Assembly: GCA_037481875.1 (NCBI GenBank)
Contig: JBBFKY010000002.1
Location: forward strand, 103,164-167,163
DNA length: 64,000 bases
Reading direction: 5' to 3'
Source of the DNA: Desulfosoma sp.
GTDB lineage: Bacteria > Desulfobacterota > Syntrophobacteria > Syntrophobacterales > DSM-9756
Both the position numbers and the translations under genes were made by a program. The notes under the pieces are model-generated. The model did no database searches and was not told the origin of the DNA. It saw only the letters and a program-made list of their open reading frames with translations. Positions 31,382 through 43,127 of the stretch are shown one piece after another. Position 1 is the stretch's first letter; every line of letters starts with the position of its first letter.

Positions 31382-33352
31382 ATGGCGCGGGAGACGGAAA
31401 TCCTGATCTTGCTGGTGGAAGATTCTTCGATCACACGAAAAATGGAAATCAAGGTCCTGAATTCTCTCGGCTATACAAGTATTCTCGAGGCAGAAAACGG
31501 CCGGGAAGCTCTCCGCATTCTTGAGGAAAACCCTCGCATCGCGCTGGTGATCAGCGATTGGAACATGCCCGATATGGGTGGTTTGGAGTTGGTACGGGCA
31601 TTACGCTCCCAGGAGCGGTACCGTGAGCTGCCTTTTATCATGGCCACAGGCCGGGCGCAGATGAAAGAACGCATGGAAGCGGCGGAAGCCGGGGCCAACA
31701 ACGTCATCACTAAGCCCTTTGCGCCTCAGGAACTGCAAAAGGCTATCGAGGATACACTGGCCGGGAAGACTTTGAGGGATCGAAAGTGCACCCAGGATCG
31801 GTGCATCGAGTTGACGGAAGCCGGCAAGGTGAGGCTCAAGGTGGCTCACATTCAAATCACGGATCATTTGACATTAGGGGTGGTCAAGCGCTTTATTGAA
31901 AACGGAGCGCAGACTCCGCGCCATTTTGAACTCGAGACCTTGTGCATGAGCAGCTGGAACCCGGTTCAGAAAGCTCTTGCGGAAGGCGAAGTGGATGCGG
32001 CGTTTGTGTTGGCCCCTTTGGCCATGGATCTTTTTGGCTACGGGGTTCCTTTGCGCATCGTTTTGCTGGCGCACAAAAACGGAAGCATCGCCGTACGCCG
32101 AAAAGCTTCGGGACAATCGATCGTGAACATGTTGAAAGGCAAAACTTTTTTTATTCCCCACGAATTGTCTATTCATCACATTTTTTCCCACATGTTTTTC
32201 AAGGGCTTAGGCTTGAATCCGGGTATTGCGGGACAGCCTGGTTGTGATGTGATCTATGAAGTGGCTCCGCCTGTGAGGATGCCCGATTTCCTTTCGGAGC
32301 AGCCCGGAGCCTGCGGCTTCATGGTGGCTGAACCCATCGGGACCAAAGCCATTGCCGCGGGTATCGCCGACGAACTCTTTTTGTCGGGGGAATTGTGGGA
32401 GAATCATCCGTGCTGTGTTGTGGCGGTGCGCGATGAAATCCTTCAGGAGCACCCGCAAGCCATGCAGGAGCTGGTCGGGATGCTTGTCCAGGCCGGCAAG
32501 TTCATTGCCAACAACCCGGAAGCCGCAGCGGAAATCGGAGTCCAGTTCTTGGACCCTCAAGGCACCCTGGGACTAAAAAAGGCCATCCTTAAAAACGTGC
32601 TGACAGATTCCATGGGAATTAAAACAGACGATTTGCTGCCGAACACCGACGATTTCGTCAAAATACAGGACTATATGGTGGATCAAATGGGTTTGGGATC
32701 CCGAGTGGATATCAGCCGATTGTTGGACCTTCGCTTTGCTGAAAGGGCCTGTCGTGAGACCGGAAGCCTGGTCCGCCGTTCCATTTTACACGATGCAAGC
32801 ATATTTGCTCGAGCGAAGGTAGAACTTCTCGAACAGCACGGAGGCTCCACCAACAAGGCGAACCTGGATCGGGAAGGCCAGTATCTTATATTTCACCTCA
32901 TGGATCAGACTTACGGTGTGGATGTCTTGTCTGTAAGGGAAATCGTCGGGATGAAACCCATTCGATCGGTACCCGAAACCCCGCGATCGTTCAAAGGGGT
33001 GGTCAACTTGAGGGGCCAGGTGATTCCTATTGTGGATCTTCGACTGAAATTTGGTCTTCCAGAAATTCCCTACCACGATCGGACCTGTATCATCATTTTG
33101 GAGATCCCTCAGGCAGGGCGCTTTATTCATATCGGTGTCGTGGTGGACACGGTATCTCATGTGGAAAGTATCAAAGCAGGGCACATTGAAGATGCGCCAG
33201 CCTACGGTTTGGGAGCCCCTTTGGAATACATTTCAGGTATGGCTAAACACGGAAACAGCGTGAGAATCCTGCTGAATGTACACCGTCTTTTTTCCGATCA
33301 ATTAAACGGACTCTCTACGGTGATTCATGAAGTGCGCTCAAAGGCCGCTTGA
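31382..33352 (+). CDS. Receiver - substrate-binding-protein-like - CheW fusion protein
   Basis: 656 aa, cytoplasmic (no signal peptide, no membrane helix). Residues 1-125 form a CheY-like receiver: acidic pair E13/D14, phospho-acceptor D59 in ISDWNMPDMGG, T89, and K111 in ITKPF. Residues about 150-450 read as an NMT1/SsuA/NrtA-type periplasmic-binding-protein fold (VDAAFVLAPLAMDLF, KGKTFFIPHELSIHH, ENHPCCVVAVRDE, NPEAAAEIGVQ), normally found outside the cell. Residues about 510-645 form a CheW domain (FHLMDQTYGVDVLSVREIVG, VVNLRGQVIPIVDLRLKFG). It could couple a phosphorylation signal and a cytoplasmic ligand to a chemoreceptor array. No CheA or chemoreceptor is directly adjacent. GGAG lies 9 nt before the ATG. 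Confidence 0.85.
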   Translation: MARETEILILLVEDSSITRKMEIKVLNSLGYTSILEAENGREALRILEENPRIALVISDWNMPDMGGLELVRALRSQERYRELPFIMATGRAQMKERMEAAEAGANNVITKPFAPQELQKAIEDTLAGKTLRDRKCTQDRCIELTEAGKVRLKVAHIQITDHLTLGVVKRFIENGAQTPRHFELETLCMSSWNPVQKALAEGEVDAAFVLAPLAMDLFGYGVPLRIVLLAHKNGSIAVRRKASGQSIVNMLKGKTFFIPHELSIHHIFSHMFFKGLGLNPGIAGQPGCDVIYEVAPPVRMPDFLSEQPGACGFMVAEPIGTKAIAAGIADELFLSGELWENHPCCVVAVRDEILQEHPQAMQELVGMLVQAGKFIANNPEAAAEIGVQFLDPQGTLGLKKAILKNVLTDSMGIKTDDLLPNTDDFVKIQDYMVDQMGLGSRVDISRLLDLRFAERACRETGSLVRRSILHDASIFARAKVELLEQHGGSTNKANLDREGQYLIFHLMDQTYGVDVLSVREIVGMKPIRSVPETPRSFKGVVNLRGQVIPIVDLRLKFGLPEIPYHDRTCIIILEIPQAGRFIHIGVVVDTVSHVESIKAGHIEDAPAYGLGAPLEYISGMAKHGNSVRILLNVHRLFSDQLNGLSTVIHEVRSKAA

Positions 33353-33505: not shown

Positions 33506-34945
33506 CTAGCTTCCTTCGTCATGTTCGCGGGGGGCCAGGTCGCCTTTGAGGCGGGAGAGGATTTTCCGAAGGGCGACACGAGAAAGGCCGCTTTGCCGAG
33601 CGGCCTCGTAGATGTTCCCTCCGGTTGCCTGAAGGAGGTCCCGAACATAGTTTGCAGTAAAACAGGACAAAAGTCGAGCCTTGGCCTTTTTGTAGTAAGG
33701 CTGAATCCTTTTCATGGACTGGGAATTTTCCGGAATAGCTCCCGCTTCCACCAGACGTAAAGATTGCAGATCGATCACTTCTCCAGGACAGAACACCGCG
33801 AGGCGTCGCATCATGTTTTGAAGTTCACGGACGTTGCCGGGCCACTCTCGGTGTTTGAGCCATTCGATCACTTCAAGAGAGATATACTTTTCCTGCGTTT
33901 TCAGCTCATTACATGTTTTTTTCAAAAAATACTGAGCCAGCAGAGGAATGTCTTCAATACGTTCTCTCAGGGGCGGCACCGTGATGGTGAGGACATTCAA
34001 GCGGTAGTAGAGGTCTTCTCGAAAAGTGCGCTGAGCGATTTTTTCCTCAAGGTCTTGATTCGTCGAGGTGATGACTCGAACGTTGACCTTTACCACGCGA
34101 TCGGCTCCCACAGGCTTGATTTCCTGCTCTTGCAGCACGCGTAGCAGTTTGGTTTGCACACTGTGAGGAATATCTCCTATTTCGTCCAGGTGAACGGTAC
34201 CTCCGTTTGCCTGCAAAAACAGACCTCGTCGAGCCCGATCGGCCCCTGTGAAAGCTCCCTTTTCATGACCGAAAAGCTCACTTTCCAAGAGATTTTCAGG
34301 TAATGCCGGGCAGTTTACCGAAAGGAAAGGCTTGGCGGCTCTTGGTGAAAGAATGTGAATAAGCCTTACGACCAACTCTTTACCCGAACCTGACTCCCCT
34401 CGCACCAGCACCGGATAATCGTTTCGAGCGACCGCAGCCACCGAGTTCCTCAAACGCACCATACTAGGGCTTTCCCCGATAAGCGTGGTGCCTCCCGCTT
34501 CCAAGAGCTCTCGAAGCCTTGCGTTTTCCTTGGTCAACCGGCATCGTTCCAATCCACGGCGCACCACGCACAGAAGATGGTTCTTTTCCACCGGCTTGGT
34601 TAAAAAATCATAGGCACCCAGTTTGACGGCTTCCACGGCTGTTTCAATGGCACCATAAGCGGTCAGCACCACAGCCGCCATCTGTGGATACAACTCTAGA
34701 GCATGATCCAGCAAGGACATGCCATCCATGCCGGGCATGCGTAGATCCGTGATGAGAAGATCAGCACCGCGCGCTTTGAGCTCGGCCAGCGCTTCATGGC
34801 CGTTTGGAAGAGGAAGGCATTCCACATCAGGAAATTCAGCCGTGATGAGCCTGCAGAGTCCGCGGGCGAAGTCCATCTCATCGTCCACCACGAGAATACG
34901 AAAGCCCTCTCGCAGCTCTACTGGATTCACGGGGTCCACGGACAT
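33506..34945 (-). CDS. Sigma-54-dependent response regulator (NtrC family)
   Basis: 479 aa from ATG 34945, inside the end of the kinase gene (19-bp overlap), so the pair is coupled. Receiver domain with VVDDEMD and the phospho-Asp in LLITDLRMPGMDG. AAA+ domain with Walker A GESGSGKE, the sigma-54-contacting GAFTGAD loop and Walker B-like GGTVHLDEIGD. R-finger region 'LYYRLNVLTI...PPLRER' and C-terminal Fis-type helix-turn-helix (GGNIYEAARQSGLSRVALRK). Activates sigma-54 promoters; the probable target is the YeiH gene 5 kb upstream on the same strand. Confidence 0.95.
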   Translation of the reverse strand: MSVDPVNPVELREGFRILVVDDEMDFARGLCRLITAEFPDVECLPLPNGHEALAELKARGADLLITDLRMPGMDGMSLLDHALELYPQMAAVVLTAYGAIETAVEAVKLGAYDFLTKPVEKNHLLCVVRRGLERCRLTKENARLRELLEAGGTTLIGESPSMVRLRNSVAAVARNDYPVLVRGESGSGKELVVRLIHILSPRAAKPFLSVNCPALPENLLESELFGHEKGAFTGADRARRGLFLQANGGTVHLDEIGDIPHSVQTKLLRVLQEQEIKPVGADRVVKVNVRVITSTNQDLEEKIAQRTFREDLYYRLNVLTITVPPLRERIEDIPLLAQYFLKKTCNELKTQEKYISLEVIEWLKHREWPGNVRELQNMMRRLAVFCPGEVIDLQSLRLVEAGAIPENSQSMKRIQPYYKKAKARLLSCFTANYVRDLLQATGGNIYEAARQSGLSRVALRKILSRLKGDLAPREHDEGS

Positions 34946-37371
34946 TGGGTCACACTCTCTTTCACGGTCGCCTTTCTGGGAATGAAAAGAATGAAACAGG
35001 CACCACCCTCTGGGTTGTTGCACGCCTCCACACGGCCGCCAAGTTCTTGAAGGTAACTGTAGACCAGACTCAATCCCAGTCCCACCCCTTTGCCGGGGCC
35101 TTTGGTGGTGTAAAACGGGACAAAAATCTGTGAAAGCTCATTTTCGTTCAATCCTATTCCGTTGTCTTTGACTGTCAGGACCACCTCATCACGAACCGTA
35201 TCATGGTTAAGGGTTACCAGGATACGACCGCCCTGAGGGGGCAGAGCATCCAGAGCATTCAAAAGGAGATTGGCCATAATCTGCTCCAGCACCTGAGAGG
35301 ACGCTTCCACCATCGGGTCGGATCCATCGGTTTCAAATTGGACCGTCGCCTTCTTCTTTTCCGCCTGCACGCTGAACACACGAATGATTGCCTGGATCGC
35401 AGCTCGAATATCGGTACTCCGGCCGTCTGTCACTTTCGGGCGTGCGAAGTCCAAAAGGTTACGCAGCACCTCGCGAGCCTGTCTTGTGTGACGAAGGATC
35501 ACGTCCAAATCGGCGAGCTGTTCCGGCTTGGCGGACTGTTTGAGCAGTTCGGCGTAACAAAGGATCACTCCCAGCGGGTTATTGATTTCATGGGCTAGTC
35601 CTGCGGCCAGCTTACCGACTGTGGCCATCTTTTCCGAGCGACTCACCTGCTCAAGCATGCGACGCTGCTCGGTGACCTCGGTCACGTGCACAACCAACTG
35701 ACGTCTCTCATCATCCTTCAGAGGATGCAAGCCAAGAAGAAAGACTCGGCCCGAGGCCAGCTTTACTTCCATGACTTTCGAGGCTTCGCGAGACGTGGCC
35801 TTTGAAAGGCTTTGGAGCCATTGCTGCTTTTCACCATCCAAAAGTAAAGGCAAAAGGTTTCCGTCCTCACAGCGGCCATCGGAGAGTTGCCGAGCCAACT
35901 CTCGAGCGGCGTTGTTTGTGACGATCACCGTCCCCTGACCGTCTAGCAAAAGCAGAGGATCTGAAATGCCTTCAAAGATAGACTGTAACTGGTCCGAATA
36001 TCGCAGAAGGCTCTCAAGAGCCCATAAATACTCTGCGGCAATGCCGAGCTGACGCCCAAGAGCTCGAAGGATTTCCTGATCCTCGGCCCTAAAAGCCTCT
36101 CCTGGTTTTTTTTCCAGATACAGCAGCCCCTCGGGGTTTCTTTCTGAAGACTCCACAGAGATCAGAGCCACGTTTTGATCCACACGTATTCCGGACTGGG
36201 TCAGAATGTTCACGTAATCTTCAGGAAGCTTCGGCTTGGCAGCTCCGTCAGGCCAGAGGAATTGGTTGTGCGACGTGAAAGTGCAGGTGTAAGCGGCACG
36301 CTTCAAGGCAAAACGCCGACCCAGAAGAGGAAGGGAGCGCTGCCAGAGTTGCGACTTTGTCTGGCAGCGCGTGGCGGTATGGAGCAACTGAACGAAAAGC
36401 TCCACATCGGCTCTTCGTTCCAAGGATTCACGGGCGAGTTCTTGAGTCCGTTGGGCGACGCGGTCTTCCAAGGCCGCGGCGTATTCTTCCAGTTGAGCGC
36501 GGTTTTCGGCAATGTGCTGACCCAATTGGGCCACTCCCTGGATCATCGCCCCGATTTCATCGCGACTCTGAATTTCTCTCAAAAGCTCCTGTCCCTTGGC
36601 ATCTCGAAGGCTGTTTTGCAGCAGTTGCATGAGATGGCGCAGATTGTCCGTGACCACACGTTTAAAGATGAACTGCGTGGATAGGAAAAAGAGCACGGCT
36701 CCCAAGGAAAAGATGGTGAGAGAAATGAGGAGGCGTTGCTTCAACTTTGCCGTGTGAGGAGATGTGGGAATTCCGATAAAATCGATACCGCCCACCTGGT
36801 TTTCAGTCCGGCCGAAACCTCGCTCTCCGTACTGCTGCAACAGTTCCGGCGGAGCGTCCTCCGATCGACCATGACAGTGAAGGCAACTTTGTTCGAATCG
36901 TACCGGCCGAGCCATCACATAGTGGTCGACATCGTTGAAGCGAATATGGCCCTCCCAAAGATGAAGATCGGGATGTTCACGAAAGAAGGCGATCAGTCCC
37001 CGTTCAATGTCGTTCGCCTCAAACTGTGGATTTCGAGCGTTCTCGGCGACGCGGCGGTAGAGAACATGTCCCAGCTTCTGACCTGTCTGTTCCATGACGG
37101 ATCGTGAAATGAACGAAGAAGACATGGCTTCGATGACGAACTTATCGGGAAGTTCCCGATACATTCGAGGGCGAAGCGTTCTGCGAACATAATTCTGCAC
37201 GGATTCAACCTGTCCGAAAATAATTTCCGCCTTTTCTTGGACCTCTCCTTCCAGAACGTTGCGCACCTGAATATAAAAACCAAAGGCGAGGATGGTGCCG
37301 ATCAGGATGGCGGCCACGGTGAGGCCGAAGAAAAACTTGCTTTGTGTGGTATAAAAGTGAGGCAGTTTCAT
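34927..37371 (-). CDS. Heme-binding (DUF3365/Tll0287-like) sensor histidine kinase
   Basis: 814 aa. TM1 at about 14-35. A periplasmic DUF3365-type domain (about 40-205) carries the c-type heme motif C163-L-H-C166-H167, embedded in FEQSCLHCHG. TM2 is at about 210-232. HAMP and coiled coil (about 235-310), a GAF-like domain (about 320-450) and PAS (about 465-580) follow. HisKA has the H-box GLAHEINNPLGVIL, and HATPase_c has NLLLNALDAL, DNGIGLNENE and GKGVGLGLS. Covalent heme in the periplasm suggests redox or gas sensing. It is coupled to the sigma-54 regulator downstream. Confidence 0.92.
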   Translation of the reverse strand: MKLPHFYTTQSKFFFGLTVAAILIGTILAFGFYIQVRNVLEGEVQEKAEIIFGQVESVQNYVRRTLRPRMYRELPDKFVIEAMSSSFISRSVMEQTGQKLGHVLYRRVAENARNPQFEANDIERGLIAFFREHPDLHLWEGHIRFNDVDHYVMARPVRFEQSCLHCHGRSEDAPPELLQQYGERGFGRTENQVGGIDFIGIPTSPHTAKLKQRLLISLTIFSLGAVLFFLSTQFIFKRVVTDNLRHLMQLLQNSLRDAKGQELLREIQSRDEIGAMIQGVAQLGQHIAENRAQLEEYAAALEDRVAQRTQELARESLERRADVELFVQLLHTATRCQTKSQLWQRSLPLLGRRFALKRAAYTCTFTSHNQFLWPDGAAKPKLPEDYVNILTQSGIRVDQNVALISVESSERNPEGLLYLEKKPGEAFRAEDQEILRALGRQLGIAAEYLWALESLLRYSDQLQSIFEGISDPLLLLDGQGTVIVTNNAARELARQLSDGRCEDGNLLPLLLDGEKQQWLQSLSKATSREASKVMEVKLASGRVFLLGLHPLKDDERRQLVVHVTEVTEQRRMLEQVSRSEKMATVGKLAAGLAHEINNPLGVILCYAELLKQSAKPEQLADLDVILRHTRQAREVLRNLLDFARPKVTDGRSTDIRAAIQAIIRVFSVQAEKKKATVQFETDGSDPMVEASSQVLEQIMANLLLNALDALPPQGGRILVTLNHDTVRDEVVLTVKDNGIGLNENELSQIFVPFYTTKGPGKGVGLGLSLVYSYLQELGGRVEACNNPEGGACFILFIPRKATVKESVTQCPWTP

Positions 37372-37535
37372 GGCGTGTCGATGATTCTCGTCTCGTGCGC
37401 TGGGGTTTAAGATATCACGGAAAAGCGTATTTCATGACCAGGCTCTTGGCAACACCTCAGTTCGCTGGGGATGAGTTGTGTGCGGCCTGATGTCCACCGG
37501 GACGAAGGTCCAAAGAACGAGCACTGGAGCCATCC

Positions 37536-37892
37536 ATGCAGGGTTTGTTGTTGTCCATGGTTATAGCCGCCCTTTTGGGAGCGGCCTCGGTCCTTTTATT
37601 TTCCCTTGCTTGGATGTCGATTCTGGGAATGGTGGCGGCGGCGATTTTGTTCATGCGGGGCCAGATTTCGGGTAGGCGATGCCTTATGAGGATCACGACG
37701 AACCTCACGAGATGCGTTGGCTCTGCCCTAACCCTTATCGTAGGCTTTCAGTTTTACCTTGGGGTCCTGGGCCGAGGTGGAAGTCCGTTCGAACAAATGG
37801 CCTATCTGGCGGGCTGTCTCCCTATGCTCCTTCGCTTTTTCAAGCAGGTCTTCCAGCGCATCGACAGACTTTTTGATCTGGATAAAGACTAG
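37536..37892 (+). CDS. Small membrane protein of unknown function
   Basis: 118 aa from ATG 37536 with GGAG 8 nt upstream. Three to four hydrophobic segments (about 4-20, 21-42, 58-78 and 85-97) and a charged C-terminal tail (QRIDRLFDLDKD). It runs opposite to its neighbours, and its stop shares CTAG with the stop of the convergent gene. No family recognised; it could still be spurious, but the hydrophobic pattern is consistent with a real protein. Confidence 0.5.
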   Translation: MQGLLLSMVIAALLGAASVLLFSLAWMSILGMVAAAILFMRGQISGRRCLMRITTNLTRCVGSALTLIVGFQFYLGVLGRGGSPFEQMAYLAGCLPMLLRFFKQVFQRIDRLFDLDKD

Positions 37893-38161
37893 TCTTGCAC
37901 CATGGAACTTGAGCGTTTCACACCGTGAGGTCCAAAGCGAATGCTGCTGCGAGTTTCTACACCGGCATCGCCCGTAACCTCCACGTCCGTGTAAAAGAAC
38001 ATGCCTGTACGCAGATTGTGCTCATCAATCACTTGAGCTATCTGATCCATGGTGACGAAGGTTCGGTTTAAGGCAGGGCAGACAAGAAACATGAAACACC
38101 AGAAAAGGATCCAGCCTCCTAAAAAGGCCAGCCATTGCCGGGGTGCTCTTGCATTTTCCAT
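37889..38161 (-). CDS. Small single-helix membrane protein downstream of the YeiH transporter
   Basis: 90 aa with AGGAGG before the ATG. One hydrophobic helix (WLAFLGGWILFWCFMFLV, residues about 10-27), then a soluble 60-residue tail with VTMDQIAQVIDEHNLRTGMFFYTDVEVTGD. It is the second gene of the YeiH transcript, 89 bp after it and separated by a hairpin. It may be an accessory subunit; function unknown. Confidence 0.7.
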   Translation of the reverse strand: MENARAPRQWLAFLGGWILFWCFMFLVCPALNRTFVTMDQIAQVIDEHNLRTGMFFYTDVEVTGDAGVETRSSIRFGPHGVKRSSSMVQD

Positions 38162-38196
38162 AATTCAGTCCTCCTGCGTGGTTTTTGTCTTCATTG

Positions 38197-38231
38197 CCCC
38201 TCGAGGAGACTGAAATGATCTCCTCAAGGGG
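38197..38231 (-). promoter_or_regulatory. Intercistronic hairpin between the YeiH gene and its small partner
   Basis: CCCCTCGAGGAGA pairs with TCTCCTCAAGGGG (12 of 13). No T-tract follows on the minus strand, so this is more likely an mRNA-stabilising or processing hairpin than a terminator. It would let the transporter and the 90-aa protein be made in different amounts. Confidence 0.5.
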
Positions 38232-38250
38232 ATGCCGGATGAAACCGCCT

Positions 38251-39996
38251 TTAAATCTTTGCGGTGATCTCCGGGAAAACCACGTAGAACATCAGGTATG
38301 CCATGGCCAAGGTCAGAGCGAGGTTGAAACTCTGACCGCAGACGTAGAGGATGACTGGCTTGCCGCCTTTGAAATAGTGAGCCAGCTCCCGAAAATTCGT
38401 AGCGAGACCGATGGAAGCAAAAGCCAGAGAGAAACACCAGCCTCGGGCCAAGCCTGTAAAACCGCGTAGCACTCCCTGGTCGAGCATGACGTAGCCTGCG
38501 TCGGATCCCAACTGTGCGTCCAAAACCGAAAAAAGAATAGAAGCGGCCAGAAAGCCCAACACGAACTTCGGAAAACGGTACCAAATTTCCATCCAGCTGA
38601 CCCGTTGACCCTCCACACATTCAACTTTGGCGCACCAGTACACGGCGACTCCGAAGGCCGTCACGCCGATCAAGACATTTTGAATCATTTTGATGGTAGC
38701 GGCGACGTACAGCGCTTTGTCCGAAAGAAACGCTCCGGCTGCGGCTACGGCACCTGTGGCGTCAATGGTACCGCCCATCCATGCACCGCCAAGAATATGG
38801 GGCATTCCCACAGCTTTAATGAAGGCGGGCATGGCCACCATCATGATGGCCGTAAATACCAGCGAAATACCGATGGCCAGGGTCAATTCCTCCTTTTTGG
38901 CTCGGCAAGCGGCCGCGGTTGCAATGGCTGCGGACGTACCACAAACGCTCATATCGGCGGAAATCACGATATTGAGAGTTTTCGAAGGCATTTTGAGCAC
39001 CTTTTGCCCAAAGATAAAGGTGGTAATAAGGACGATAGGAGTTACAACCCAGGCCACGAAGATACCCGGTATCCCGATGGCGACAATCTTTGAGAAAAGG
39101 ACTTCAGCGCCTAGTAGGACAAGTCCGGTCTTGATGAAATACTCGACTTCTAACGCAGGTTTGATCCATTGCGGTGTTCCGATGGTATTGGCGATCAGCA
39201 TGCCGATGGCGATAGCCCACACGGCGTATTCGACACCATAGTGTTTCATGGTGGCCTGACTCGCCAAACAGTAAGCCACGACACTAATAAGGAAGACCGC
39301 TCCAAAGCCCTTGAGGAAAGCAAAAACACCTTTTCCCATAAATTTAATGCCTATGGAAAAGAAGAGAGCCATCACGACACCGAGTCCGAGAAGCGTCGGA
39401 ATCAGATTGTACGGCTTATGCTCCGTCTTAGCCTTGGCCTTGGAAGCGGCCGCATGAGCTTTTCGCCAGGCGTCGATCTTTTCTACGGCCGCAGCGTTCA
39501 ACGCCGCATCTTGGAATCCGGCTTGAGCCGCAGCATTTTGAGCGGCCATGGCAACCGCCAAAGCGTCGGCTTCCTTGGCTTTGGCGGCTTCGTATTTCGG
39601 CATGTTGGCCGTATTGAGAGCATCGGCCCGCTCCTTGCTCATGTAAAAAGACTGAGTGATATCGGTGCTCCAATCTTTCGGGTGCGCCAGCCATTTCCTG
39701 AAAAACTTGCCAACCTCACTGTTGGTCGCCTTTAATTTCTTTTTGGCATCCTGAGCTTGGTACCATTCGATGGTCTTGAACGGCGCTCGGGAAGCTTCCG
39801 CCTCCATGATCGCATTGGATTTAGCGATGATCTCGTGCATTCCTTTAGGTTTTGCAGACCAAAAGGCAATAAGACCTGCGATCAGAAGAATGAATCCCAG
39901 CCAGATGGCCCAATAGTCTTCCTTTGTCCATAGGTCGGACCAGCTTGCTGTGGCTCTGTCCATAACGATTTGCTCGTTCTTGGATGTCGGCTCCAT
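38251..39996 (-). CDS. YeiH-family putative sulfate exporter with long N-terminal extension
   Basis: 581 aa; typical YeiH/UPF0324 proteins are about 340. The conserved core starts near residue 195: YNLIPTLLGLGVVM, AIGMLIANTIG, EYFIKTGLVLLGAEVLF, DMSVCGTSAAIATAAACRAKKEELTLAIGIS, MGGTIDATGAVAAAGA and SIGLATNFRELA (about 10 helices). Ahead lies one extra TM (about 30-48) and an approximately 120-residue Ala/Lys-rich helical segment, probably outside the membrane. The family is annotated as sulfate/sulfite/sulfonate exporters. A sigma-54 promoter lies upstream and AAGGAGAGG precedes the ATG. Confidence 0.88.
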   Translation of the reverse strand: MEPTSKNEQIVMDRATASWSDLWTKEDYWAIWLGFILLIAGLIAFWSAKPKGMHEIIAKSNAIMEAEASRAPFKTIEWYQAQDAKKKLKATNSEVGKFFRKWLAHPKDWSTDITQSFYMSKERADALNTANMPKYEAAKAKEADALAVAMAAQNAAAQAGFQDAALNAAAVEKIDAWRKAHAAASKAKAKTEHKPYNLIPTLLGLGVVMALFFSIGIKFMGKGVFAFLKGFGAVFLISVVAYCLASQATMKHYGVEYAVWAIAIGMLIANTIGTPQWIKPALEVEYFIKTGLVLLGAEVLFSKIVAIGIPGIFVAWVVTPIVLITTFIFGQKVLKMPSKTLNIVISADMSVCGTSAAIATAAACRAKKEELTLAIGISLVFTAIMMVAMPAFIKAVGMPHILGGAWMGGTIDATGAVAAAGAFLSDKALYVAATIKMIQNVLIGVTAFGVAVYWCAKVECVEGQRVSWMEIWYRFPKFVLGFLAASILFSVLDAQLGSDAGYVMLDQGVLRGFTGLARGWCFSLAFASIGLATNFRELAHYFKGGKPVILYVCGQSFNLALTLAMAYLMFYVVFPEITAKI

Positions 39997-40100
39997 ATTC
40001 CTCTCCTTTGCTTTTGGGTTTTCCTCTTTTGCGTGCCATCTTTTCAGTCAGCCGCCCCCAACTGGGCTCGGGCTCAGGCGCCGTTGACTCTCGCCTGCAA

Positions 40101-40116
40101 AGCAAATAGCGAGCCC
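40101..40116 (-). promoter_or_regulatory. Sigma-54 (-24/-12) promoter of the YeiH gene
   Basis: Minus-strand GGGCTCGCTATTTGCT: GG and GC separated by exactly 10 bp, matching TGGCACG-N4-TTGCW at 10 of 12 defined positions. The start site would be near 40090, about 93 nt before the ATG. Confidence 0.7.
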
Positions 40117-40195
40117 CATAAGGCGATAATTGCTTAACCTATCGGAATACTTCTAAATATGTTCCATGCCGCGGGCTTGCTAGCGTATACCTGCC

Positions 40196-40209
40196 TTAGC
40201 ATCTGCTAA
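40196..40209. promoter_or_regulatory. Palindromic candidate activator-binding site
   Basis: TTAGCA-TC-TGCTAA is a perfect 14-bp palindrome, about 80 bp upstream of the -24 element, the usual distance for an NtrC-type enhancer site. The related half-site TTGCTAGC lies just beside it (40177-40184). Confidence 0.45.
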
Positions 40210-40629
40210 CAAAAGTTTGCAGTTTCAGGGCTTGGTTTAGAAGGTAATCCGGTCACCTTGAGCAGCGTCTTGTCGTCTTCCACTACGTTTGCCAAACGAC
40301 AATGAGGTTGCTGCTGGCGTTGAGAAAGATGGGTGTGCCAGAGACGTGACAAAGAGATTTGGTGGGATTTTCAGTGAGCGGCACCATGAGCTTCCGGTCC
40401 AGGTGCGACTTTTTTCTTTTCGTGGAGACAACACCCATCGGGCAGGCCTACTTAAGAATATTTTTCAGTGAATGCGGAGCTGGAAGGTAAATCTGGAGGG
40501 GGATACGTCGATCGGCCCCATCAGGCCTTGCGTCGGCTTATTTTGACGAAGTTCCCAGAAATGACCAAATGGGTATTGGTTTCGATTGGCAAGAAATTTA
40601 CAAGCCGGCTTTTTAATCAGAGCCTTGAA

Positions 40630-40952: not shown

Positions 40953-42974
40953 TTAGAAATCCTGCAAATCCTCGTCAAAAGGAATGAGTTCTTGTGGTGA
41001 GGTCTTGTCGCTTTTGTTTAGCGTCGCAGGGTGAGCTTTGCCGTTTCCTGCCTTGGCCACGGATTTCGGCTCTTTCCGCGAAAACACTTTGTCTTTTGGC
41101 GAAGGGGGTGCTTTTTCTTTCTTCCAGGCTAAGCCTTTGATCTTGAGACCGTCGCCTCGCCTTCCCACGAGGGCCTGAAGTTCTTCCACCAGAGACTGCA
41201 ATTGAGCCGCCTGAGCATTCAGTTCTTCCGCGGCGGAGGCGGATTCTTCAGCATTGGCCGCCGTTTGTTGCACCACTTTGTCCATCTCCGAGATGGCCGT
41301 GTTCACCTGCGTGATCCCTTCACTTTGTTCATGGGAAGCCGCAGCGATCTCGTTCACCAGTTCCGCCACCTTGATCACACTTTCATGGACTTGGGAAAAA
41401 GCCTGATTGGTGGCTTCCGTAAGATCCGCCCCTTGTTTCACCCGCACCACCGTGCCTTCGATGAGCTGCGCCGTGTTCTTGGCCGCTTCCGCCGCACGCA
41501 TGGCAAGGTTTCGGACTTCATCGGCCACCACCGCAAAACCGGCCCCGGCTTCCCCCGCTCGAGCCGCTTCCACGGCGGCGTTCAGAGCCAAAAGATTCGT
41601 CTGAAACGCGATTTCATCAATGGTTTTAATGATCTTTTGGGTTTGTTCACTTGATCGTGTAATTTCTTCCATGGATTCCAAGAGCTCGACCATGCTGACC
41701 TTAGCTTTTTCTGCGGCTTTGGCGGCCTGTTTCATGAGTCCGTCGGCCTGAGCCGCATTGTCTGCGTTTTGCCGGGTCATGGAAGCCATCTCTTCCACGG
41801 CGGAAGAGGTTTCTTCAATACCTGCGGCCTGCTGAGAAGCCCCTTCAGCCAACTGCTGGCTTGCCGAAGCCACCTGACCGGCCGCCGAAACCACCTGTTC
41901 GGCGCTTTCCCCCAGTTCCTCCGAAGTCTTTCTCAGCACCGCGTTGATGCCGCGAGTGATGACGGCCCCGAGGAGAATGGCGAACCCAAGGCCGATCAGC
42001 GCCGCAGAAGTCATGAAGACTTTCATGCGTTCGGCAAAGGTGATGGAGTGCTCGGAGACGCTTTTCCCCACGTCTCGGTTGATGGCCACCACTTTTTCCA
42101 AGAGAGGCAAGGCGATGCGTTGTTTCTCGAGCACAGGCCCAAGCAATTGTTCTTCAAGGGCTGCCATGGTCGCATGCGCGTCATCGGCTATCTTGTTAAT
42201 CCCTTCAAAGTGTTTGAAGACCTCTTCACGAGCCAGTCGAAAACGGTTTTCAACAAGCACGCGGGCTTCTTCGTTCCTTCCTGAACGAACCAATTCCTTG
42301 ATTTCACGAAGGGTTTCGTGAAACAGACGATGAGGTTCCTGAACGGAAGCCAGGAGATTTTTGAGTTCAGGATTTTGCGTGGAAAACTGGGTAAGCCATT
42401 TTCCGAAACGACAGGCTGTATGGTCTTCACCGCCTTGGAACGATTTGCCCGTAAGGATCATGTCCAAAACTCGGGCTTCCAGATTCAGGTGATCTGCGGT
42501 GAACATCGAAATTTTTGATTTGAGCTCGTCAGGATCCTTGATTCCTAAGGCGTCAAAGCGCTTGGACATTTCCAGCGCCTTGTTGTTTTCCGCCTTCCAA
42601 GCTTCATGGGCCACCTTGAACTGTTTCCACACTTCGGCTTCTTCCGGAGTCTGCGGTAACGGCTCATAGATTTTCATGGCGCCTTGATAGGCCTCTCGAG
42701 CTTTGGCGATGTTTTCATACTGGCGCTGCCGGACCGCAGAATCCAGCCCTGAAATGGCCAAGGTTCGAAGACTTGCGCGAATGTCTTGCAGCTTTTCGGC
42801 CATGACCAAGGTCGCTTCCACACTGGGCAGTCTCACATGGCCCACCTCATTTAAAGCGCTGACAGCCCGAATAGCCGTAAAGTACGCCACGCCTCCGAGA
42901 ACCGCCACAACCCCACACAACACCGCAAATGTCAAACCCAAGCGTTTCCCCACAGTCCATCGTCTCTGTTGCAT
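40953..42974 (-). CDS. Methyl-accepting chemotaxis protein with a CZB zinc-binding motif
   Basis: 673 aa from ATG 42974 (GGAGGG upstream). TM1 at about 13-35, TM2 at about 335-358, so residues 36-334 are periplasmic. That part holds a four-helix-type segment and a CZB signature: H162-x-x-L, C188-R-F-G-K-W, H215-x3-H219. The cytoplasmic part is a methyl-accepting signalling hairpin with the conserved tip [22 protein letters not shown]. It likely senses metal, redox or an oxidant in the periplasm and reports to CheA/CheW. The C-terminus ends in DEDLQDF, with no classical CheR-binding pentapeptide. Confidence 0.92.
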
Positions 42975-43127
42975 CTCTTGCCCTCCTCTGTCTTTTGCAT
43001 GTTTCAGGGTCTGCGTGCATGACGAAAAGTAAGATGCTTTGCCGATGCACCGCTTTTCCATCCTGCCCTATGATCGGCACAGAACGGACAGGACTTTAGA
43101 GAAAATGCGCTCAGTTTCGGTCTTTTT

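Follow-up and report, generated by a model that had tools for sequence, protein, structure and literature searches.

Background

In Desulfovibrio vulgaris Hildenborough the regulator DVU0946 and its paralogue DVU0539 have been mapped to the operon DVU0943-0946 as well as to further operons (PMC3333781, PMC4641369). In DAP-chip experiments DVU0946 binds upstream of DVU0943-0946, the operon that encodes DVU0946 itself; EMSA has been used to test its motif, and in a reporter assay the regulator activates pDVU0542 (PMC3333781). Transporters of the putative sulfate exporter (PSE) family are described in this work as sigma-54 controlled and, in sulfate reducers, as being without substrate data (PMC3333781, PMC4641369). 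During ordinary growth DVU0943-0946 is well expressed (PMC3333781), and this does not point to a system induced purely by NO. In Salmonella the transporter YeiH is the main sulfite-resistance factor (PMC12880088). Within the heme-Cache family an NO-binding type has been told apart from a Cys/His redox type and, in the part of that account drawn on here, the single signalling protein tested shows the behaviour of an NO binder, not that of an O2 sensor (PMC12889525). For heme-Cache kinases, target genes are not given in the portions of the literature that we found. Here we describe a recurrent circuit that joins such kinases to PSE transporters.

Results

Genes of the locus

In the window (the whole 64-kb stretch of Desulfosoma DNA that was analysed) a PF03601 transporter gene and the gene for a 90-aa membrane protein adjoin a gene pair encoding a heme kinase and an NtrC-type activator (Table 1).

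Table 1. Features of the Desulfosoma locus, in window coordinates
Feature	Position	Strand	Evidence
NtrC-type sigma-54 activator (response regulator)	33506..34945	-	Pfam: receiver, sigma-54 AAA+ with GAFTGA, Fis-type HTH
Sensor histidine kinase, 814 aa	34927..37371	-	Tll0287/sCache_heme domain (aa 40-202), PAS, HisKA, HATPase
c-type heme attachment motif CxxCH (C163-L-H-C166-H167), in kinase	36871..36885	-	Sequence
118-aa small membrane protein gene	37536..37892	+	tblastn conservation
90-aa single-pass membrane protein, conserved transporter partner	37889..38161	-	Adjacency in relatives
PF03601 putative sulfate-exporter (PSE) transporter, ~200-aa N-terminal extension	38251..39996	-	Pfam, NCBIfam searches
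Predicted sigma-54 promoter GGGCTCGCTATTTGCT (GG-N10-GC)	40101..40116	-	Motif search and alignment with L085, L086
Second, promoter-proximal, weaker tandem UAS site GATGCTAAGGCAGGTATACGCT	40182..40203	-	Refined matrix 7.6
Palindrome TTAGCA-TC-TGCTAA, overlap of inner half-sites of two UAS copies	40196..40209	-	Sequence, matrix sites
First UAS site ACTGCAAACTTTTGTTAGCAGA	40202..40223	-	Best 64-kb match, matrix built without window

The transporter falls within the PSE family, matching PF03601 with E=2.8e-44 and 151.7 bits (Pfam cut-off 24.5), and its orthologues show 57-79% identity. Against the YeiH subfamily model (NCBIfam TIGR00698) it scores 70.4 bits, well below the curated cut-off of 232.6. 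The original prediction was of a YeiH-family putative sulfate exporter; judged by the NCBIfam model the protein is a distant relative rather than a member. A PDB sequence search with the transporter found no relative. The 90-aa membrane protein gene, which had also been predicted, lies directly 3' of the transporter gene in most of the loci compared among relatives, and its product matched no family in Pfam or NCBIfam. Between this gene and the kinase gene, convergent with the former and divergent from the latter, is a 118-aa membrane protein gene that the original prediction overlooked. In tblastn searches it is conserved at the same place, in either orientation, in L085, L087, L140, L155, L034/L035 and other loci, and by this conservation it is a conserved accessory of the module. 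A Pfam search with the 118-aa protein returned no family.

The sensor domain of the kinase belongs to the sCache_heme (Tll0287/DUF3365) family, matching PF11845 with E=3.9e-33 and 115.4 bits (cut-off 24.1), and only one other PF11845 domain was found in the genome; a PDB sequence search with it gave only a weak match to Tll0287 (E=0.34). The predicted CxxCH is borne out, CLHCH at 163-167 being invariant across 34/34 aligned module kinases. Hydrophobic stretches flank the heme domain on both sides in the sequence, and the domain would be periplasmic and outward-facing, with a covalent c-type heme predicted from the CxxCH motif. In 38 of 40 sensor domains, that of the Desulfosoma kinase included, there is no extra Cys able to act as an axial ligand, so these domains resemble the NO-binding type and not the Cys/His redox type. 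Met83 of the sensor is also invariant in the aligned module kinases and could serve as a distal heme ligand, which would make a redox sensor.

The regulator beside the kinase, predicted to be of the NtrC family with a GAFTGA motif, was confirmed as an NtrC-type sigma-54 activator by its Pfam domains and sequence. In a tree of 42 EBPs, the backbone of which is not resolved, it clusters with the EBPs of loci L085 and L086 (100/100), and a separate supported branch holds most of the clearly unlinked EBPs. A search of the plasmid collection gave only short matches, those listed being generic sigma-54 activator fragments.

Linkage and the 22-bp site

Of 78 independent relatives, 33 have the kinase and/or activator gene beside the transporter gene, and three gene orders occur: PSE-then-kinase and operon-like (14), divergent (11) and kinase-then-PSE (8). 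Eight further loci have the pair beside other transporters of the same family; L053-L057 and L059 are loci with more divergent transporters. Upstream of the transporter a 22-bp site was found at 29/33 loci with the pair as against 2/43 without it (Fisher p about 2e-14); with the first matrix, four of the 33 loci that have the pair fail to reach p<0.05. The site can be written RSTGCnnnCnnnnGnnnGCAYY. Scored with the 22-bp matrix, loci that have the pair are told from those that lack it with an AUC of 0.97, and none of 500 column-permuted matrices exceeds 0.84. The first matrix was built from 11 sites with the Desulfosoma window excluded, and its best match in the 64 kb is 40202-40223, with a score of 15.1 (next 13.0). 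The refined matrix scores this site 17.2 vs 8.8. Only 2 of the 500 column-permuted matrices place the best match of the window in this region.

The connection between this regulator and this promoter, originally only inferred, is well supported because the linkage is recurrent and the upstream site tracks the presence of the pair. The same two observations make it highly improbable that another sigma-54 activator drives the transporter promoter while the neighbouring pair regulates something else, although these genomes carry many EBP-like genes (79 candidates at a first look in Desulfosoma) and four transporter loci without a heme kinase (L104, L137, L154 and L157) nevertheless have good sigma-54 promoters.

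Promoter, palindrome and tandem sites

The predicted GG-N10-GC promoter is present and has aligned counterparts in L085 (TGGTACATTTCTTGCC) and L086 (TGGTACGCCTATTGCT), where the distance to the UAS is nearly the same. Each alone, the promoter and the palindrome are no better than chance. Promoter matches of equal quality number 9 in the 64-kb window, where 10.75 are expected from shuffles, and the exact 14-bp palindrome, unique in the genome, has 1 match at up to two mismatches in the window against 1.15 expected. The promoter and the upstream features become significant because they are conserved in relatives, and only so. It might be held, from the chance-level counts, that promoter and upstream site are fortuitous matches in a coincidental neighbourhood. 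This reading is already largely refuted and scarcely credible, since a matrix built without the window ranks 40202-40223 first in 64 kb and the UAS and promoter keep their register in the two closest relatives, L085 and L086.

A second, weaker copy of the 22-bp site lies nearer the promoter (7.6 bits with the refined matrix, fifth best in the window), in tandem with the first at an offset of 20 bp and in register with L086 and L085. Among relatives a tandem spacing of 19-20 bp dominates (20 pairs). The palindrome exists exactly as predicted, and conservation in relatives had been proposed as its check: the exact copy is absent in Desulfacinum and other relatives, whereas the 22-bp site is conserved. 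As the sites align, the 14-bp palindrome, itself not conserved, lies where the two tandem 22-bp copies join and is not the operator as such. That the palindrome (written TTAGCA-GA-TGCTAA) is itself a single-dimer operator and the 22-bp sites incidental is a reading suggested by its perfect inverted repeat, its uniqueness in the genome and its plausible distance. We consider it very unlikely, as its halves are the inner half-sites of the two 22-bp copies and the same arrangement occurs elsewhere although the junction there is not a perfect palindrome. Neither the further near-copies of the palindrome in the genome (L002, L003) nor the remaining exact TGCAAA-N6-TTRGCA match (L074) is flanked by a strong UAS.

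When the whole genome was scanned with a model of the 22-bp site based on sequence only, nothing was found at E<=10, and the site is therefore not usable alone to call a regulon; a stricter pattern of the site had two matches, as compared with four in the control. Upstream of the kinase gene no notable 22-bp site or sigma-54 promoter was found that would point to autoregulation of the pair.

Discussion

In our reading the locus very probably forms a complete two-component circuit of the sigma-54 type for a transporter of the PSE family, with a heme c kinase and tandem activator sites. Comparison of the relatives shows the linkage of the genes, a site specific to the regulator together with its tandem layout, and the promoter. 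The kinase, its c-type heme domain loaded and facing outward, would phosphorylate the NtrC-type regulator, whose gene lies just 3' of its own. The regulator would then bind as dimers to the two tandem sites, which are about two helical turns apart and have their centres some 97 and 77 bp upstream of the -24 element, and would drive sigma-54 RNA polymerase at the promoter, so that the transporter and its 90-aa partner would be transcribed.

The signal may be NO, a redox change or another cue, and the cargo is most likely sulfite, or else a related sulfur anion. The chances seem about even that the circuit is right and yet the kinase responds to a cue different from NO (redox state, sulfide, sulfite, O2 or heme occupancy), the substrate of the transporter is not sulfite (but sulfate, or an anion connected with lactate metabolism), or both. 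In D. vulgaris the same regulators are tied to lactate genes, the papers give substrate specificity as unknown (PMC3333781, PMC4641369), and DVU0943-0946 is well expressed without added stress; the transporter scores below the YeiH cut-off, and the invariant Met83 would suit a redox sensor. Against this stand the NO binding of the one heme-Cache signalling protein tested in the part of the account drawn on (PMC12889525) and the sulfite-resistance phenotype of YeiH (PMC12880088). A broader proposal, which we advance only as a rather unlikely speculation, is that periplasmic heme-Cache kinases are widespread among sulfate reducers as a system dedicated to sensing NO: poisoning of sulfite reduction by NO or nitrite would make sulfite accumulate, and the kinase would induce a sulfite exporter through the tandem sites. 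If so, the heme-Cache circuit would link nitrosative stress to the export of sulfur intermediates. As the circuit is recurrent and has a defined DNA site, the cue of the kinase (gas or redox) and the sulfur anion of the transporter become testable in the genetically tractable Desulfovibrio.

Comparison with known systems

As in the DVU0946/DVU0539 regulon, an NtrC-type response regulator would control a PSE-family operon, and as in DVU0946-type circuits the regulator adjoins that operon, which has a predicted binding site and sigma-54 promoter upstream. A Desulfovibrio congener locus (L144; Desulfovibrio sp. A2) has the order Fur-PSE-TM90-hemeHK-EBP, which is that expected for DVU0942-0946, DVU0942 being Fur. 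This synteny indicates that DVU0943-0946 is the same module as the Desulfosoma locus. The circuit had been thought undescribed; its activator-transporter limb is not new, having been mapped in D. vulgaris (PMC3333781, PMC4641369), while the heme input and the tandem site appear undescribed in the parts of the literature consulted. The portions of the D. vulgaris reports used here do not mention a heme sensor in the partner kinase (PMC3333781, PMC4641369), and the signal is linked there loosely to lactate. In Desulfosoma, unlike D. vulgaris as compared by synteny only, an additional gene lies between those for the kinase and the transporter.

The kinase resembles the sCache_heme/DUF3365/Tll0287 family, so far as the account consulted covers it, in the fusion of PF11845 to a kinase, the CxxCH and the lack of an extra periplasmic Cys (PMC12889525). 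It differs in the Met83 that is invariant among the kinases aligned here, and target genes for such kinases were not found in the part of that account used. The YeiE-YeiH sulfite stress system of Salmonella likewise has a PF03601/YeiH-group transporter controlled by a dedicated regulator that is its neighbour (PMC12880088). There, however, the regulator is a sulfite-binding LysR protein, whereas the Desulfosoma locus has a sigma-54 two-component system, and its transporter is distant, with the N-terminal extension and a small membrane partner.

Gene content and linkage

The CxxCH (CLHCH) histidine kinase and the GAFTGA-bearing NtrC-type activator of the original prediction are both present on the minus strand (see table). 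A 118-aa membrane-protein gene on the plus strand had been overlooked. Homologues of the latter lie in the equivalent place, in varying orientation, in the relatives' loci L085, L087, L140 and L155 and in Desulfacinum loci (the Desulfacinum infernum genome, G004, has its family in common with the window genome).

Features of the module and other genes in the window
Feature	Position	Strand	Remark
Receiver, NMT1/SsuA-like substrate-binding and CheW domains	31382-33352	+	unusual fusion
NtrC-type activator	33506-34945	-	GAFTGA
Histidine kinase	34927-37371	-	Tll0287-like periplasmic domain, CLHCH
118-aa membrane protein	37536-37892	+	between 90-aa protein and kinase, opposite strand; no Pfam family
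90-aa membrane protein	37889-38161	-	single-pass
PF03601 transporter	38251-39996	-	profile match
Second, weaker tandem site	40182-40203		GATGCTAAGGCAGGTATACGCT; 20 bp after first site
First 22-bp site	40202-40223	-	ACTGCAAACTTTTGTTAGCAGA
Chemoreceptor	40953-43061	-	4HB sensor, CZB zinc-binding and MCP signalling domains

Neither the predicted promoter nor the palindrome is, by itself, better than chance: the window holds nine promoter-like sites of equal quality against 10.75 expected, and one palindrome with at most two mismatches against 1.15 expected. A comparative test was therefore needed. We fetched 80 genome contigs with transporter orthologues and set aside two duplicate Desulfacinum loci, leaving 78. 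The heme-Cache kinase and/or the NtrC-type activator adjoins the transporter in 33 of these, a count that includes loci such as L114, L116, L131 and L133, where one gene of the pair was detected (contig extent or lost frame). The kinase is downstream on the same strand in 14, divergent in 11, and the pair is upstream on the same strand in eight; from these three orders we argue that the association is functional rather than a single inherited operon. It is not a background effect, since PF11845 domains number only two in the window genome. The other one (G000:C14:46233-46667) lies in a frame of 224 aa, which, being short, probably encodes a stand-alone heme-Cache protein.

The pair also occurs in eight loci of an earlier genome search (L034, L035, L053-L057 and L059; the L056 contig ends within the kinase). 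In six of the eight, including one from the window's own genus, the PF03601 transporter is far more divergent (~31-37% identity). In L055 (9840-10303) and L056 (minus strand), transporters of other subtypes have their own small proteins in the promoter-to-transporter interval, and those of L055 and L056 resemble each other, as though transporters of this family generally required a small partner.

A 22-bp site upstream of the transporter

Inspection by eye of intergenic regions in loci outside the window revealed an imperfect inverted repeat, 22 bp long, with the pattern RGTGC-N12-GCAYY. A first matrix built from 11 sites in six of these loci, window excluded, found its top match in the 64 kb at the first site (15.1 bits, against 13.0 for the runner-up). 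A further 76 loci, kept apart from training, served as the test set. There the highest-scoring site in the 600 bp upstream of the transporter exceeded shuffles at p<0.05 for 29 of the 33 loci that have the pair, compared with 2 of the 43 that lack it (Fisher p ~2e-14, nominal because related genomes are not independent). The AUC was 0.97, against at most 0.84 for 500 column-permuted matrices, only two of which placed the window's best match in the site region. After refinement on the test loci, with the window still excluded, the window site scored 17.2 and the next match 8.8; in a whole-genome scan the motif was too short to stand out. That the regulator acts on the transporter promoter, as originally proposed, thus gains comparative support from linkage to the pair and from a site that tracks it.

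The predicted palindrome is a real inverted repeat upstream of the promoter, but it is the junction of two tandem 22-bp sites: these share two bases where the right half of the first (TTAGCAGA) runs into the left half of the second (GATGCTAA), giving TTAGCA-GA-TGCTAA. In relatives, the two sites of a tandem pair are mostly offset by 19 or 20 bp (20 pairs). One ordinary assembly mode of NtrC-type activators is a pair of dimers separated by about two helical turns. In the two closest relatives, L086 and L085 (transporter 78-79% identical), tandem sites and promoter align in register with the window, while the stretch separating them is poorly conserved.

Sensor and cargo

A 2026 preprint (PMC12889525) renames the kinase's sensor-domain family sCache_heme, with CxxCH as a defining motif. 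It describes Cys/His ligation and redox traits in stand-alone members, and tight NO binding with no stable O2 complex in a signalling member without the Cys. Because 38 of 40 module sensor domains have no extra Cys, the window kinase is of the signalling type by this criterion, which makes NO sensing a reasonable lead. M83, invariant across 34 aligned sensor sequences, could be a distal heme ligand.

The transporter matched the PF03601 model and fell below the cut-off of the curated YeiH model. In Salmonella, sulfite resistance depends chiefly on YeiH, a related protein (PMC12880088), and the substrate of the PSE (putative sulfate exporter) proteins of sulfate reducers is stated to be unknown (PMC4641369). 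Sulfite as cargo, like NO as signal, is a lead.

Relation to the Desulfovibrio vulgaris circuit

In D. vulgaris Hildenborough, the regulators DVU0946 and DVU0539 recognise a common motif, and their targets are DVU0943-0946, DVU2133-2132 and DVU0542-0545, with evidence from DAP-chip, gel shift and a reporter assay; other sulfate reducers are reported to have orthologues of the regulators, as well as copies of the motif upstream of their DVU0943 orthologues (PMC3333781, PMC4641369). In Desulfovibrio sp. A2 (locus L144) the genes run M16 peptidase, Fur, PSE, small membrane protein, heme kinase, regulator; in D. vulgaris, Fur is encoded by DVU0942 (PMC5646257). From this synteny, rather than direct comparison, we conclude that DVU0943-0946 would correspond to the module found in the window. 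Distant PF03601 paralogues in Nitratidesulfovibrio (L189:1088, L174:1052, L192:1139) likewise carry the 22-bp site, ~80 bp ahead of a sigma-54 promoter (TGGTCCCGATnTTGCT), in keeping with a multi-operon DVU0946 regulon.

On the comparative evidence we consider it highly probable that the circuit is real. It had been thought undescribed, which does not apply to its regulator-transporter limb, of the kind known for DVU0946 and DVU0539; the heme sensor as input and the tandem arrangement of the sites are additions to that known kind.
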